This document shows, one piece after another, positions 16,002 to 62,025 of a stretch of DNA of 64,000 nt. The DNA lies in contig NC_019780.1 in NCBI RefSeq assembly GCF_000317615.1, positions 930,001 through 994,000 of the forward strand, in the 5' to 3' direction. The DNA is from Dactylococcopsis salina PCC 8305 (GTDB lineage Bacteria; Cyanobacteriota; Cyanobacteriia; Cyanobacteriales; Rubidibacteraceae). Below the pieces are notes generated by a model, which searched no databases, was not told the DNA's origin, and worked only from the letters and a program-made list of their open reading frames with translations. Position 1 is the first letter of the stretch; each line of letters begins with the position of its first letter. Made by a program: the position numbers and the translations under genes.

Positions 16002-16040
16002 TATTCTACTTCCTGATTGCTCCTTTTAATTATTAGAAAA

Positions 16041-18038
16041 ATGTCAACATTTCAATTACAATCTTCTTATCAACCGACAGGCGATCAACCGATCACGATC
16101 GAGCAGTTAACCGAATCTCTTCTCAACAAAAACCGTTTCCAAACCTTACTCGGTGCAACGGGAACAGGAAAAACTTATACAGTTGCTAATGTTATTGAAA
16201 AAATCAGCAAGCCCACTTTAGTTTTAGCACATAATAAAACCTTAGCTGCCCAATTATGTAATGAGTTACGAGAATTTTTCCCGAACAATGCGGTAGAGTA
16301 TTTTATTAGTTATTACGACTATTATCAACCAGAAGCATATATTCCTGTTTCTGATACTTACATCGAAAAAACTGCCTCGATTAACGACGAAATTGATATG
16401 TTACGCCATTCAGCAACGCGATCGTTATTTGAACGTGAAGATGTCATTGTTGTCGCTTCTATTAGTTGTATTTATGGCTTAGGAATGCCGAGTGAATATC
16501 TGAAAGCTGCAATTCCTTTACGCTTAGGAGAAGAAACAGATCAACGTCAATTATTAAGAGATTTAGTGTCGGTTCAATACACTCGTAATGATACGGAATT
16601 ACAAAGAGGAAGATTTCGTTTAAAGGGAGATGTTTTAGAGATTGTTCCCGCGTATGAAGATCGCATTGTTCGCGTCGAGTTTTTTGGAGATGAAATTGAT
16701 GCGTTGCGTTATGTTGATCCGACAACAGGAGAAGTTTTAAAGAGTTTAGAAGGACTTAATTTATATCCAGCGCGTCACTTTGTTACTCCTGATGGTCAGT
16801 TAGAAAGAGCCTGTGAGGAAATCAAAGCAGAATTAAAAGGAAGATTAGAGGAATTAGAAAAGGAAGGAAAACTCTTAGAAGCGCAACGACTAGAACAACG
16901 GACAAAGTATGATTTAGAATTACTAACTGAAGTGGGTTATTGTAATGGCGTTGAAAATTATTCCCGTCATTTAGCAGGACGAAGCGCAGGAAGTCCACCC
17001 GAATGTTTAGTGGATTATTTTCCCGATGATTGGTTATTAATTGTCGATGAATCTCATGTCACCGTTCCGCAATTAAGAGGGATGTATAATGGCGATCAAT
17101 CTCGGAAAAAAGTTTTAATTGATCATGGTTTTCGACTGCCTAGCGCGGCGGATAATCGTCCCTTAAAAGCTGAAGAATTTTGGGAAAAAGTCAATCAATG
17201 TATTTTTGTTTCCGCAACTCCTGGGGATTGGGAAATTGAACAATCAGAAGGGAATGTGGTGGAACAAGTTATTCGTCCAACAGGGGTTCTTGATCCAGAA
17301 GTTTTTGTGCGCCCAACTGAAGGACAAATTGATGATTTATTAGGGGAAATTAAAATCAGATCAGAAAAAAATGAGCGGGTTTTAGTCACGACTTTAACGA
17401 AACGAATGGCAGAAGATTTAACGGAGTATTGCGAAGGAAGAGAGATTCGAGTCCGTTATTTACACTCAGAAATTCACTCGATCGAACGGATTGAAATTTT
17501 ACAAGATTTGAGACAAGGGAAGTTTGATGTGTTAGTTGGGGTGAATTTATTACGGGAAGGATTAGATTTACCAGAAGTGTCTTTAGTCGCGATTTTAGAC
17601 GCAGATAAAGAAGGGTTTTTGCGATCAGAACGATCGCTCATTCAAACCATGGGACGTGCGGCGCGTCATGTAGATGGACAGGCGATTTTATATGCCGATC
17701 AGCTAACTGATAGCATGGATCAGGCGATTCAAGAGACACAACGACGACGAAAAATTCAGATTGAATATAACAAGAAACATGGGATTACACCGCAATCTAT
17801 TGTTAAGAAACAAAAGAATTCGATTCTTTCCTTTTTGGATATTTCTCGCCGCTTAAATTCTCAGCAGTTGGAAATGGTATATGAACAAGCGGATGAGTTA
17901 CCTTTAGATAAGATTCCGCAATTAGTGGAACAGTTGGAAGCAGAAATGAAGGACGCAGCAGAAAAGTTAGAATTTGAAAAAGCCGCTAATTTGCGCGATC
18001 GAGTGAAGCAATTAAGAGAAAAGTTATTAAGACATTAA
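16041..18038 (+). CDS. uvrB: UvrABC system protein B
   Basis: A 665-residue DNA damage recognition subunit of nucleotide excision repair. I place the start at ATG 16041, giving [17 protein letters not shown], instead of an in-frame start 24 bases earlier. Walker A is GATGTGKT (residues 38-45), the damage-verifying beta-hairpin region is [12 protein letters not shown], the DEAD-type motif is IVDESHV, and helicase motif VI is [10 protein letters not shown]. The C-terminal UVR domain that binds UvrC is present (about 620-660). Length is normal. Confidence 0.97.
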
Positions 18039-18176
18039 TCAGGATTGGGGGAAATGTTATTTTTTCGATCGAGTATTTGTGCAATCCAAGTTTTAATTAC
18101 AGCTTGTCGATGAATATTCAGAAGAAACTAGAATGATTTCTGCTCTTATCAAACCTTAAATTATTAAATCACTTTT

Positions 18177-18392
18177 GTCTCTTGCCTCTTGCCTCTTGCC
18201 TCTTGCCTCTTGCCTCTTGCCTTTTGCCTCTTGCCTAAGGCAACTTGCCTTTTGCCTCTTGCCTAAGGCAACTTGCCTAAGGCAACTTGCCTTTTGCCTC
18301 TTGCCTAAGGCAACTTGCCTAAGGCAACTTGCCTTTTGCCTCTTGCCTTTTGCATGCAAGCCTTTTACCTCTTGCCTCTTGCCTTTTGTAAT
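18177..18392. repeat. Heptamer array (TTGCCTC/TTGCCTT/TTGCCTAAGGCAAC)
   Basis: Some 25-30 tandem 7-bp units, mostly TTGCCTC and TTGCCTT, are interspersed with the palindrome TTGCCTAAGGCAA. The period matches the short tandemly repeated repetitive (STRR) sequences known from cyanobacteria. Frames read through it are artefacts. Confidence 0.9.
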
Positions 18393-18496
18393 TGTTATTT
18401 ATTGCTTTGCTACATTATTCTTAACATTTAACGAATTTTCGCCATTTGAGAACGCTACTCTTGCCAAATAGCCTGTTCCGTTATAAAATTACCGTA

Positions 18497-19620
18497 CCAT
18501 GATGGGAAGTAGTGCCAATTTTAAAAATATTGCCATCAAACTCCTATCGTTTCGTTGGCTGCTTGCGATTTCCTCTTCTCTGGTTAGGGGTCGAAATGAA
18601 CATTAAGTTAGATTAAGCTGACGACAAAAAAATCATTAACCGTAGGCAAAACTCTGAAAATATGGTATGCAAGCAGATTTTAAGTTGAATTAAAGATCAT
18701 CCCCAACCTCTACACCCAGAGAAGCCATTAAAAGCAAAAAATTTTTTTTCAGGGGTGGCGCTCGATCGAGCTTTCTGATAAAGTATTTCTAGATAATGGG
18801 AAGTGTTGCCAATTTTAGAAAACGCCCCTGAAAGCAAGGAAACTCGTTCCTAATATCCCCCCTCCCCGTATTGACGAGCCTCGATCGAGCATCAGAATTT
18901 AAGGAAATCCTGAAGACTTACCATAAGTGAAAGCAGTGGGCAAAATCAAGAAAATATGGTATGCAAATGAATCTTCATGTTGAATAAAGCATCATTCCCA
19001 TTCCACGATACCTTTTTCGCCAATACCAAATACCAAATAACAAATAACAAATACCAAATAACAAATAACAAATCAAGAGAAACCAGAAAAGGGCGAATTT
19101 TTTTTCAGGGGTGGCGCTCGATCGAGCTTTCTGATAAAGTATTTCTAGATAATGGGAAGTGTTGCCAATTTTAGAAAACGCCCCTGAAAGGAAGGAAATT
19201 CGTTGCTCATATCCCCCCTCCCCGTATTGACAAGCCTCGATCGAGCATTGAACTTTCCAAAATAATTAAGCAGCAGCCATAAGAAAAACCAGTGGGCAAA
19301 AATCTGAAAATATGGTATGCAATCAGATTTAGAGTTGAATTTAACATCATCCCCAACCTCTACACCCAGAGAAGCCATTAAAAGCAAAAATTTTTTCAGG
19401 GGTGGCGCTCGATCGAGCTTTCTGATAAAGTATTTTTAGATAATGGGAAGTGTTGCCAATTTTGGAAAACGCCCCTGAAAGCAAGGAAATTGGTTCTCCA
19501 TATCCCCCCTCCCCGTATTGACAAGCCTCGATCGAGCATAAGAAATTAACGCATTATCAAAGAGTAACCATAAGGAAAAGCAGTGGGTAAAATTGGGAAA
19601 ATATGGTACGCCAACCGATT
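18497..19620. repeat. Tandem array of about 290-350-bp units with a long hairpin
   Basis: Three good units (hairpins from about 18748, 19104 and 19395) and one degenerate upstream unit (about 18497-18670) follow each other. Each good unit has TTTCAGGGG...CCCCTGAAA arms about 60 bases apart, enclosing CTCGATCGAG and GATAATGGGAAGTGTTGCCA. Each continues with ATATCCCCCCTCCCCGTATT, a TTGACA or TTGACG box, a second CTCGATCGAG, AGTGGG and GAAAATATGGTATGC. CCCAACCTCTACACCCAGAG precedes the first and third hairpins, while an AAATAAC microsatellite precedes the second. No convincing protein frame is present, and this fills most of the 1.8-kb gene-free gap 18039-19867. Confidence 0.8.
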
Positions 19621-19626
19621 TTAATT

Positions 19627-19830
19627 AGTGTTGGGTTTCGCTTCTCTTCACCCAACCGACATCTCTTATTAATTTCCCCCAAGATTGGGGGTTAGGGGGC
19701 TGACCTTAAGTTGGGTTTCGCTTCTCTTCACCCAACCGACATCTCTTATTAATTTCCCCCAAGATTGGGGGTTAGGGGGCTGACCTTAAGTTGGGTTTCG
19801 CTTCTCTTCACCCAACCGACATCTCTGGTA
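19627..19830. repeat. 81-bp tandem repeat combining two hairpin families
   Basis: About two and a half copies of a unit joining GTTGGGTTTCGCTTCTCTTC/ACCCAACC with CCCCCAAGATTGGGGGTTAG. It ends about 40 bases upstream of the gene at 19868. Confidence 0.9.
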
Positions 19831-19867: not shown

Positions 19868-20335
19868 ATGTCAGTGCATCGAGTGCGAGTGGCGAAAGAC
19901 AAAGCAAGTTTAGTACAAGCGTTAATTAGAGAGAAAGAAAGCAGAGGGACATTTGAAACCTATGCTGATGTCATCATGTTTGCGGCGGCTTATGGGGGAA
20001 AACATCAGAAGTATGTTCCGATCACCACAGGAATTAGTAATGACCCCGCACCGATTAGTTTAGAGATATTTCTCTCACGAGGATATGATTGGGCAATTAA
20101 ACTGATTGCGATCGCGCATTGGCAAGATACAAGTATTTTATCTCCTTATGAAGCCCAAGCACAAACGCAACGGGTAACACTGATCGAACAAGCAGCAAAT
20201 GGAGGATTAGAATTACTAGGGGAAGCGTTACGGGGTGCGGTGGATTACAGCGATCGGTTGCTGTTGGTTTTAAATCAGGAACGTTATCGCAAGCCGAACC
20301 CTCCTCCGAATTTTGACCTCAGCCGTTTCTTATAG
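19868..20335 (+). CDS. DNA phosphorothioation-associated protein 4 (dnd_assoc_4-like)
   Basis: The 155-residue protein has HRVRVAKDKASLVQALI at the start, TYADVIMFAAAYGG, the central PAPISLEIFLSRGYDWAIKL and the late ANGGLELLGEALRGAVDYSD. From memory these fit the small family annotated as dnd system-associated protein 4, found beside dndBCDE and dndFGH genes that put sulfur into the DNA backbone or restrict unmodified DNA. Its biochemical role is not known. No dnd core gene lies within this window, so here it is an orphan. The ATG follows a HIP1-like CGATCG and shows no strong Shine-Dalgarno. Confidence 0.75.
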   Translation: MSVHRVRVAKDKASLVQALIREKESRGTFETYADVIMFAAAYGGKHQKYVPITTGISNDPAPISLEIFLSRGYDWAIKLIAIAHWQDTSILSPYEAQAQTQRVTLIEQAANGGLELLGEALRGAVDYSDRLLLVLNQERYRKPNPPPNFDLSRFL

Positions 20336-25335: not shown

Positions 25336-25355
25336 GTTTCATACGTTTTCTTGAA

Positions 25356-26062
25356 GTTCCCCCAGAGTTGGGGGTAAGGGGGCGATCGAGTTCCCCCAAA
25401 GTTGGGGGTGAGGGGGCGATCGAGTTCCCCCAGAGTTGGGGTAAGGGGGCGATCGAGTTCCCCCAGAGTTGGGGTAAGGGGGCGATCGAGTTCCCCCAGA
25501 GTTGGGGTAAGGGGGCGATCGAGTTCCCCCAAAGTTGGGGGTAAGGGGGCGATCGAGTTCCCCCAGAATTGGGGGTAAGGGGGCGATCGAGTTCCCCCAA
25601 AGTTGGGGGTGAGGGGGCGATCGAGTTCCCCCAAAGTTGGGGGTGAGGGGGCGATCGAGTTCCCCCAGAGTTGGGGTAAGGGGGCGATCGAGTTCCCCCA
25701 GAGTTGGGGTAAGGGGGCGATCGAGTTCCCCCAAAGTTGGGGGTAAGGGGGCGATCGAGTTCCCCCAGAATTGGGGGTAAGGGGGCGATCGAGTTCCCCC
25801 AGAGTTGGGGTAAGGGGGCGATCGAGTTCCCCCAAAGTTGGGGGTAAGGGGGCGATCGAGTTCCCCCAAAGTTGGGGGTAAGGGGGCGATCGAGTTCCCC
25901 CAGAATTGGGGTAAGGGGGCGATCGAGTTCCCCCAAAGTTGGGGTAAGGGGGCGATCGAGTTCCCCCAAAGTTGGGGGTAAGGGGGCGATCGAGTTCCCC
26001 CAAAGTTGGGGGTAAGGGGGCGATCGAGTTCCCCCAAAGTTGGGGGTAAGGGGGCGATCGAA
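25356..26062. repeat. 21-copy tandem array of 33-34-bp hairpin units
   Basis: Twenty-one head-to-tail units read GTTCCCCCAAAGTTGGGGGT then AAGGGGGCGATCGA. Variation is confined to AAAGTT/AGAGTT/AGAATT, the G-run length and TAAG/TGAG. Each unit holds a CCCCCA..TTGGGGG hairpin and a CGATCG core. There are no unique spacers. The array ends two bases before the ppx stop codon. Frames through it are artefacts of the repeat. Confidence 0.95.
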
Positions 26063-28551: not shown

Positions 28552-30372
28552 ATGAACACGGACAACCGATGTATTAAATGGGGCGATATCGATTGGCATA
28601 AAGCCGAGAGGGTCGTCTATAAGCTCCAAAAGCGCATCTACAAAGCGTCAAGTCGTGGAGATGTCAAAGCAGTTCGCAGACTCCAGAAATTGTTAGTAAA
28701 ATCTTGGTCGGCTAAGGTATTAGCGGTGCGTAGAGTTACTCAGGACAATCAGGGCAAAAAGACGGCAGGAGTGGATGGGGTTAAATCCTTGTCCCCAGTA
28801 GCACGTATGAAGCTCGTAAATAATCTGAAACTGGGTTCAAAGGTTAAACCAACTCGAAGGGTAAAGATTCCGAAACCTAATGGGGAGGAAAGACCTTTGG
28901 GAATACCTACCATGTATGACCGTGCGCTACAAGCGTTAGTAAAACTAGCCTTAGAACCTGAATGGGAGGCGGTCTTTGAACCAAATTCCTACGGGTTTCG
29001 TGCAGGGCGGTCAGCCCATGATGCTGTCACAGCTATATTTGATGCCATTCGGTACAAGCCTAAATACGTGCTTGATGCGGATCTAGCTAAATGTTTCGAC
29101 CGTATCAACCACGAGAGACTCCTGAATAAAATAAAAACCTTTCCCACGTTTCGGAAACAAATTCGGGCGTGGCTCAAAGCAGGGGTAATGGAGGGTAAGG
29201 AGTTCTCGCCAACATCTGAGGGTACGCCACAGGGTGGGGTCATTTCTCCACTACTGGCTAACATTGCCCTCCACGGTATGGAAAATGAAATCAAGGCTAT
29301 CGCTCACACTTTTGATATGAAAACCAATAATGGTTATCAAGTCAGTGCTTCAAATAAGCGGAGGTCTGTATGTGTAATCCGATATGCCGACGATTTCGTT
29401 ATCCTACACGAGAGCCTCGCCGTTGTCCAGAGATGTAAAGAGGTTGTTTCCAATTGGTTGGCAGACATGGGGCTAGAATTGAAACCGAGCAAAACCAGAA
29501 TCGCCCACACCCTTGAAAATTACGAAAATGAAAAAGCGGGGTTTGACTTCCTCGGCTTTAATATCCGCCAACATAAGGTGGGTAAATATACATCAGGAAG
29601 GGACACAAAAGGGCGACTTTTAGGGTTCAAAACGCTCATCACCCCTAGTAAGGAAAGTCAGAAAAAGCACTATCGGAGGATAGCTGAGGTAATTGATAAG
29701 CATAAAGGGCAGTCACAAGCTACTTTGATTGCGAATCTCAACCGTGTTATCCGAGGGTGGTGTAACTACTTCTCAATAGGAGTAAGCTCAAAGGTCTTCT
29801 CAAGGCTAGAACATCTGACTTTCTGGAAGTTATGGAAATGGGGTGTAAAACGTCATCCGAATAAAGGAAAGAAGTGGGTTAAAACCAAATACTTCCGAAC
29901 TATAAGGGGCGACAAATGGACGTTTGCCACACCGCGTGAAGGGTCGAATCCTATGGTGCTAATGAAGCACTCACAAACAGCAATCGTCCGTCATGTCAAA
30001 GTTAAGGGGGATAAAAGCCCTTATGACGGCGACTTAATCTACTGGAGTTCAAGAATGGGCAAACACCCTGAGATGCCAAAACGAACAGCGTCGTTGCTCA
30101 AGAAGCAGAAAGGGAAGTGCGCTCACTGCGGATTGTTTTTCCGAGATGGAGATTTATTAGAGGTTGACCATATCGCCCCCCGCTCAAAAGGCGGAAAAGA
30201 CGAGTATAAAAACTGGCAACTACTCCATCGACATTGCCACGATGAAAAGACCAGAACGGATGGGAGTATCCACCATCACGGGACTTCCGTAAAAGGGAGT
30301 AATCACCACCCCGTGGCTTCCATTATCCCAGAGGATTATCAATGGGAAAACGATATGCTGGTGACGTACTGA
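28552..30372 (+). CDS. ltrA: Group II intron reverse transcriptase/maturase with HNH endonuclease
   Basis: A 606-residue protein. The N-terminal RT0-like region precedes reverse transcriptase blocks with KPNGEERPLGIPTMYDRALQ, the template-binding LDADLAKCFDRINH and the catalytic RYADDFV. Maturase domain X follows (FDFLGFNIRQHKV, RVIRGWCNYFSIG). The C-terminus is an HNH nuclease with zinc cysteines (GKCAHCGLFF, EVDHIAPRSKGGKDEYKNW, LLHRHCHDEKT). All key residues are present, so the protein should support splicing and retrohoming. Codon use and HIP1 density differ somewhat from neighbours, as expected for a mobile gene. Confidence 0.95.
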   Translation: MNTDNRCIKWGDIDWHKAERVVYKLQKRIYKASSRGDVKAVRRLQKLLVKSWSAKVLAVRRVTQDNQGKKTAGVDGVKSLSPVARMKLVNNLKLGSKVKPTRRVKIPKPNGEERPLGIPTMYDRALQALVKLALEPEWEAVFEPNSYGFRAGRSAHDAVTAIFDAIRYKPKYVLDADLAKCFDRINHERLLNKIKTFPTFRKQIRAWLKAGVMEGKEFSPTSEGTPQGGVISPLLANIALHGMENEIKAIAHTFDMKTNNGYQVSASNKRRSVCVIRYADDFVILHESLAVVQRCKEVVSNWLADMGLELKPSKTRIAHTLENYENEKAGFDFLGFNIRQHKVGKYTSGRDTKGRLLGFKTLITPSKESQKKHYRRIAEVIDKHKGQSQATLIANLNRVIRGWCNYFSIGVSSKVFSRLEHLTFWKLWKWGVKRHPNKGKKWVKTKYFRTIRGDKWTFATPREGSNPMVLMKHSQTAIVRHVKVKGDKSPYDGDLIYWSSRMGKHPEMPKRTASLLKKQKGKCAHCGLFFRDGDLLEVDHIAPRSKGGKDEYKNWQLLHRHCHDEKTRTDGSIHHHGTSVKGSNHHPVASIIPEDYQWENDMLVTY

Positions 30373-30394
30373 TGACAACAGCCGTTTAACTGAG

Positions 30395-30428
30395 GAGCGG
30401 TGTGATGGGAAACTATCATGCACCGTTT
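30395..30428 (+). ncRNA. Group II intron domain V
   Basis: The 34-base hairpin begins GAGCGGTG and ends CACCGTTT, with the AGC catalytic triad at positions 2-4 and a GAAA tetraloop (GGGAAACT). This is the catalytic core of group II introns. Confidence 0.9.
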
Positions 30429-30489
30429 TGGAGAGCAGTGGAGGGGGCGACCTCTTCACTGACTTTAATTCCTCTAACAATTAATGTAA

Positions 30490-61811: not shown

Positions 61812-62025
61812 TTCCCCTCAGAATTGGGGGGTCAGGGGGGCGACTTCCCCCCAGAATTGGGGGGTCAGGGGGGCGACTTCCCCTCAGAATTGGGGGGTCA
61901 GGGGGGCGACTTCCCCCCAGAATTGGGGGGTCAGGGGGGCGACTTCCCCTCAGAATTGGGGGGTCAGGGGGGCGACTTCCCCCCAGAATTGGGGGGTCAG
62001 GGGGGCGACTTCCCCCCAGAATTGG
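61812..62025. repeat. 33-bp tandem C-rich hairpin array, interrupted by MITE 2
   Basis: About six and a half units of CCCCTCAGAATTGGGGGGTC then AGGGGGGCGACTT, alternating CCCCTCAG with CCCCCCAG. The seventh unit is split by the MITE at 62026-62180, and the array resumes at 62181-62240. Confidence 0.93.

Follow-up and report, generated by a model that had tools for sequence, protein, structure and literature searches.

Correia elements of Neisseria are non-coding intergenic repeats that bear promoters and have defined inverted-repeat ends, and the heptamer STRRs of cyanobacteria are tandem intergenic repeats whose 7-nt units are without promoters. The BrickBuilt MITE of Porphyromonas gingivalis is intergenic, is present in tens of copies with variable internal tandem direct repeats, and has reported promoter activity (PMC4596501). 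NsiR1 of Nostoc, ~60 nt long, is found in 12 copies at one site upstream of hetF and carries a heterocyst-specific promoter motif (PMC9045159).

The repeat analysed here lies in a 64,000-nucleotide stretch of the Dactylococcopsis salina PCC 8305 genome (the window). It resembles BrickBuilt in being intergenic, present in tens of copies, variable in its tandem repeats and spread within a single species, with promoters that are here a sequence signature only; it differs in that BrickBuilt has 23-nt repeats in a leader/tail element with inverted-repeat ends (PMC4596501), whereas here the repeat module is ~300 bp, has three promoter-like sites and no inverted-repeat ends that we could identify, and we claim no sequence relation. 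With NsiR1 it shares a cyanobacterial host, tandem repetition in a gene-free stretch and a promoter per repeat (here predicted), but its units are ~300 bp, lie at ~20 sites and have no defined RNA. Correia elements and this repeat are both small, dispersed, non-coding, intergenic and promoter-bearing (promoters being predicted here), but no inverted-repeat ends were found in our repeat and its whole module is tandemly amplified. STRRs are likewise tandem and intergenic and are intermingled with the units (19022-19073, 18170-18388), yet their 7-nt units are promoter-free. We found no literature on the transcriptome of the genus or on a repeat of this kind.

The array occupies a gene-free gap of 1.83 kb between the stop codon (18038) of a gene that, from its protein sequence, we take to be uvrB and the ATG (19868) of a 155-aa ORF, both from the ORF table of the window (Table 1). 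Three near-identical B units (18736-19618) are preceded by one divergent unit A (~18420-18677). The original prediction of a tandem array in a 1.8-kb gene-free gap is confirmed, all the boxes it named being present in all three B units; its left end of 18497 falls inside a fourth unit and caught only half of it, because unit A precedes the B units. B1, B2 and B3 are mutually 83-86% identical (18739-18978, 19095-19334 and 19386-19625; spacing 356 and 291), and each holds the arms, two CTCGATCGAG palindromes, the C-rich block and a TTGACG/TTGACA box. B1 and B2 also hold GAAAATATGGTATGC, and the last unit, B3, has GAAAATATGGTACGC instead. Unit A is without arms, palindromes and TTGACA and retains the ATGGGAAGTAGTGCCAATTTT core and GAAAATATGGTATGC. 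Because CGATCG is in genome-wide excess (161 in the 64-kb window, 694 in 272 kb), the palindromes carry little weight by themselves. AT-rich repeats akin to the heptamer repeat between B1 and B2 separate B units at several other loci.

Table 1. Features of the array and its flanks (positions in the window)
Feature	Position	Strand	Sequence or basis
uvrB, co-directional, upstream of array	16017..18038	+	ORF and translation
Unit A, first, divergent	18420..18677	+	model matches 18481-18677, G000:948417-948671
Unit A box1	18421-18441	+	TTAACATTTAACGAATTTTCG
Unit A P1 (promoter-like site 18461-18489)	18461-18466 / 18484-18489	+	TTGCCA / TAAAAT
Unit A core	18499-18522	+	ATGATGGGAAGTAGTGCCAATTTT
Unit A P3	18643-18648 / 18666-18671	+	TAGGCA / TATGCA
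Unit B1	18736..18971	+	
Unit B1 arms	18747-18755 and 18825-18833		
Unit B1 P1	18756-18761 / 18779-18784	+	TGGCGC / TAAAGT
Unit B1 palindromes	18761-18770 and 18880-18889		
Unit B1 core	18790-18817	+	TAGATAATGGGAAGTGTTGCCAATTTTA
Unit B1 box2	18840-18849	+	AAACTCGTTC
Unit B1 C-rich block	18853-18869	+	
Unit B1 P2	18871-18876	+	TTGACG
Unit B1 P3	18937-18942 / 18960-18965	+	TGGGCA / TATGCA
Heptamer short tandem repeat, B1-B2 spacer	19022..19073	.	AACAAAT
Unit B2	19092..19327	+	
Unit B2 P1	19112-19117 / 19135-19140	+	TGGCGC / TAAAGT
Unit B2 P2	19227-19232	+	TTGACA
Unit B2 P3	19293-19298 / 19316-19321	+	TGGGCA / TATGCA
Unit B3	19383..19618	+	
Unit B3 P1	19403-19408 / 19426-19431	+	TGGCGC / TAAAGT
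Unit B3 P2	19518-19523	+	TTGACA
Unit B3 P3, most degenerate of the three B P3s	19584-19589 / 19607-19612	+	TGGGTA / TACGCC
80-bp repeats between array and 155-aa ORF	19630-19826		
155-aa ORF, first co-directional gene downstream of array, ~250 bp off	19868..20335	+	

Copies exist genome-wide: BLAST with one unit gave 41 matches, and the box pattern TTGACNAGCCTCGATCGAGCAT gave 39; its reversed control gave 0. An HMM iterated over 21 regions yields ~36 B and ~9 A units at ~20 sites in the single contig of 3,781,008 bases, and these units occur between genes both singly and in tandem arrays. Where the divergent unit A is present it is the first unit, in the order A-B(-B)n (the window array, L034, L036, L038, L042, L045 and L051, with a partial A at L044 and L047). 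The A-to-B junction, TTGAATTAAA.ATCATCCCCAACC..CACACC then AGAGAAGCC..., is seen at many different sites, and since an identical junction recurs in this way the composite A+B block must have been copied. Weaker relatives form further tandem arrays in this genome at 1467k (nine copies, 339 bp), 3311k (four, ~382 bp), 1823k (four), 2255k (two) and 3066k, and their alignments contain few gaps across up to 240 positions. The nine gene-free 339-bp units at ~1467k (L215 3640-6935, G000:C1) are distant relatives with model scores of 17-21 bits and lie downstream of one gene, tail-to-tail with ispE. Two four-unit arrays (L218 3808-5195 and L216 3778-5418, units ~382 and 440-520 bp apart) each have a box of TTGAC or TTGAA type where P1 would lie, and each precedes a co-directional gene, by eye for a FemAB-like and a subtilase-like protein.

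A 37-base match in the genus-mate G001 revealed a third type, C, which is older than the A and B units and occurs singly at dispersed places in four species of the genus: this genome has four copies, G001 has two, and G003 and G004 have one each. Aligned A, B and C units have in common box1 AACGAATT (poorly kept in B), P1 of the form TTGCNN-N17-TANNNT, the core AGATAATGGGAARTAGTGCCAAAAAT, box2 GAGGATTCGT, P2 TTGACAAA (lost in A) and P3 of the form TTGACA-N17-TAAGCA/TATGCA; AATTTTTGTAAAGC is present in C copies only. A sequence-only model built from A, B and C units (R1) and searched across the family matched 77 times in this genome, 2-5 times in each genus-mate and not at all in the family's three other genera. 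With two mismatches or fewer, the core pattern is found in 6 of 391 genomes of the order, eight times in Prochloron didemni (G050), and over all species genomes the 19-base pattern hits 35 stretches, scattered single matches except for several in Prochloron. There the core is preceded by a textbook-like promoter (TTGACAAAAAAAATTTGGAGTAGTATCCTAGATAATGGG / TTGACAAAAAAAATTTGGAGTAGTATCCT) in three 159-bp tandem copies, in which P2 and P3 were not seen. Promoter and core recur in such 159-bp copies at L065 and L067, followed at L065 by several ~52-nt repeats CTCTAAGCAAGAATACTCACTCACTACTCTAACGATATAGCAGCTCTCAAAAC. A search of viral contigs, phages and plasmids returned no match, and relatives of these kinds were rejected.

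TTGACA/TATAAT was scored at every alignment position with spacers of 16-18, giving 675 position/spacer combinations, with the other positions of the same conserved alignment as the null. The best three of the 675 were P3, P2 and P1 (z 5.1, 4.4 and 4.1; spacers 17, 16 and 17), coinciding with the conserved boxes, which read TTGACA-N17-TA.... at P3, TTGACA at P2 and TTGC..-N17-TANNNT at P1; the best minus-strand score was lower. An extended TG is present at P3 in 9/9 copies and at P1 in 8/9. Each repeat unit thus carries the signature of sigma70-type promoters, -35 and -10 hexamers at 16-18 nt conserved across copies, with the P3 -10 atypical in ending in A, C or G and not the usual T, and the P2 -10 weak. 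Reading the alignment, we also see TTG-N17-TANNNT at the P1 position in weaker copies outside the model-building set (G001 and other families of this genome). The promoter signal rests on the multi-copy alignment, because a plain consensus scan of the window array alone finds 4 promoters against 3.0 in shuffles, no excess. Between the -35 boxes of P1 and P3 the distance is 179 bp in five of ten copies (C1, C2, C3, C5 and C6), 182 bp in C7, C8, A and B (for B after a 3-bp correction for gap misplacement in the alignment) and 194 in C4; most C copies have 116 bp from P1 to P2 and 63 bp from P2 to P3, near whole helical turns. No forward intrinsic terminator is predicted in the array. The conserved boxes are better read as putative sigma70-type promoter elements with adjoining conserved DNA, and the protein-binding array proposed at the outset survives with RNA polymerase, perhaps a regulator, as the would-be binder.

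Fitch change counts on a tree of 34 B units gave 496 changes (2.1 per column) and two internal gap patterns. The block TATCCCCCCTCCCCGTATTGACAAGCCTCGATCGAGCAT, comprising the C-rich stretch, TTGACA and palindrome, has ~0.6 changes per column against 2.1 overall, and GCAAGGAAACTCGTTCCTAA has 3.3, in agreement with the claim that discrete boxes are kept while spacers drift; the arms, at 1.2 and 2.1, are about average. Unchanged columns are clustered (longest run 11, p=0.012; variance of 20-column sums, p=0.01). The scarcity of indels among B units may partly reflect recent copying, and because change clustering and gap scarcity also depend on such copying, the cross-species spacing is the stronger argument. 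As was also claimed, it is not a reading frame that is conserved: no ORF is kept across units. Unit A has a 35-codon ORF (18499-18606) with a hydrophobic middle (MMGSSANFKNIAIKLLSFRWLLAISSSLVRGRNEH) and no Pfam match, intact in most A copies and broken in two. A small-peptide gene was rejected on finding a stop in one A copy, a frameshift in another and, in most B units, a stop after MGSVANFRKRP.

The "long hairpin" of the original prediction holds as an inverted repeat with ~70 nt between its arms, but not as a supported fold. Two of the checks proposed with it, covariance over genome-wide copies and fold prediction of the arms, came out negative: among 33 distinct B units no pair of the arms TTTCAGGGG/CCCCTGAAA has changed on both sides, pairing is kept in 90.9% of cells against 91.0% in shuffles, and folding of single sequences does no better than shuffles on either strand (z -0.72 and -0.09). 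RNAalifold on the B units gives 32 pairs, none with a double change, and the consensus fold energy of the C copies is -1.5 kcal/mol. The arms are absent from A units and are not kept as a pair in C copies. Known RNA families were rejected since no Rfam covariance model came near its gathering score on the array or its relatives, in keeping with the earlier failure to match a known RNA.

The repeat has the MITE features of being without coding capacity, multi-copy and intergenic; no transposase, target duplication or consistent pair of inverted ends was identified for the arrays. A hairpin, H (GTTGTTTCATTATGAATGAAATCAAC), borders a few arrays, some at the left and others at the right, in the same orientation, and an inverted-repeat transposon ending in H was rejected because H does not bracket the arrays. 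Of the 18 occurrences of H in this genome, 10 are an identical element distinct from the arrays. This 21-nt hairpin is found at one end of a distinct multi-copy element, some copies of which have an inverted partner. This ~230-bp element (L236, L237-L240) starts with CAGGGCTGTTTCATTATGAATGAAATCAAGG, ends in some copies with AATGAAACAGCCCTGC, has ten identical hairpin ends in this genome and none in genus-mates, and looks like a MITE.

The 20 A/B sites comprise 10 convergent, 2 divergent, 5 co-directional aligned and 3 co-directional reversed, as classed from mechanical ORF calls of which several are ambiguous. Since a circular genome has as many convergent as divergent spaces, the ratio of 10 to 2 (p=0.039, two-sided) suggests that copies insert, or survive, at places where they leave promoters intact; given these ORF calls, the preference for convergent gene ends is modest evidence. 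At one orthologous site, the chlH-wcaJ interval, there is an array in this genome, one C copy in G003 and no element in G001 and G005, where the junctions have diverged too far for a duplication to be seen. What relatives conserve upstream of wcaJ has been lost here, with the array in its place, and the array may now supply transcription of this gene.

On balance these data favour a dispersed, gene-less intergenic repeat, a ~250-bp module with three co-directional predicted sigma70-type promoters, which has probably been tandemly amplified in this genome. We infer promoter firing, mobile-element-like spread and any function that the repeat may have. It would act as DNA, with RNA polymerase starting at P1, P2 and P3 and the P1 product beginning inside the conserved core (AUAAUGGGAAGURKUGCC), and, because the array holds no terminator, transcription would run along it and outwards. 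Copies would spread as A+B composite blocks to sites between genes, with a preference for spaces flanked by gene 3' ends, and tandem duplication would later lengthen or shorten the arrays. If the promoters fire, one genome has been seeded with tens of co-directional promoter clusters between its genes, which would be a natural source of new promoters, as at wcaJ where conserved upstream sequence has been replaced, of antisense transcription of convergent genes and, through tandem duplication, of variation in copy number. Ordinary promoter regions do not usually hold three promoter-like sites at near-constant distances over ~180 bp while the copies diverge, which lets a question of multi-promoter architecture be tested with a single reporter. 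More tentatively, and with considerable doubt, the repeats might constitute a previously undescribed genus-wide intergenic superfamily, in which three predicted promoters and flanking boxes, near-constant over ~240 bp despite deep divergence, would form one transcriptional unit, for example with several polymerases or a regulator on one DNA face; it would have undergone repeated independent tandem amplification in one species and have a related core in Prochloron.

The main rival, which we consider unlikely, is a tandem array of small-RNA genes like NsiR1, where P1 of each unit would drive a short RNA lacking structure, and this RNA would pair with target mRNAs through its conserved 5' end (AUAAUGGGAAGURKUGCCAA) or its C-rich CCCCCCUCCCC. 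A promoter per tandem unit matches the NsiR1 layout (PMC9045159), and P1 with the ~25 nt after the expected start is the only part common to the Prochloron copies and among the best-kept parts of B. Yet the array has no forward intrinsic terminator and no RNA structure, many C copies have a shorter or changed C-rich stretch, and P2 and P3 would lie inside the RNA at conserved distances that a small RNA does not need.

It is distinctly less probable that the repeat is a regulatory module whose promoters were amplified so as to increase or adjust the expression of the genes downstream. Single C copies are more often upstream of a co-directional gene, directly so at alaS here, the atp operon in G001, wcaJ in G003 and an asparagine-synthase-like gene in G004; the window array co-directionally precedes the 155-aa ORF and the wcaJ array has displaced conserved upstream sequence. 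However, at the convergent sites, half of the total, there is no gene to drive, the conserved promoter-like block directly before atp is present in 6/6 genomes and the element in G001 only, and alaS is without the element in the five genus-mates. An ancestral promoter of alaS or atp was likewise rejected, as at these genes the other species have upstream sequence of their own and no element.

It is improbable, too, that box1 and box2 (GAATCGTT, roughly its inverse), which flank P1, are bound by a regulator or DNA-organising protein that the arrays titrate: the two boxes keep fixed places in C copies and most weaker relatives, but box1 is poorly kept in B units and the promoter signature accounts for the most constant positions with no further protein. 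The structured RNA first proposed draws on the paired arms of the B consensus and is very improbable, being rejected for its shuffle-level energies, the lack of covariation, and arms that are missing from A and not kept as a pair in C.

Apart from these readings, C copies lie at two places, one in this genome (L136, G000 577k) and one in G001 (L241, G001 464k), at which the methyltransferase and atp genes no longer adjoin as they do in three genus-mates, as if the elements marked points of rearrangement. Elsewhere in the window, 33-34-bp units of the form TTCCCCCAAAGTTGGGGGTAAGGGGGCGATCG make up tandem arrays at 25355-26061 (21 copies) and 61812-62025 (6.5 copies), and a 606-aa ORF with, behind it, a match to an Rfam group II intron at 30393-30469 is probably a group II intron with its reverse transcriptase (28552-30469).
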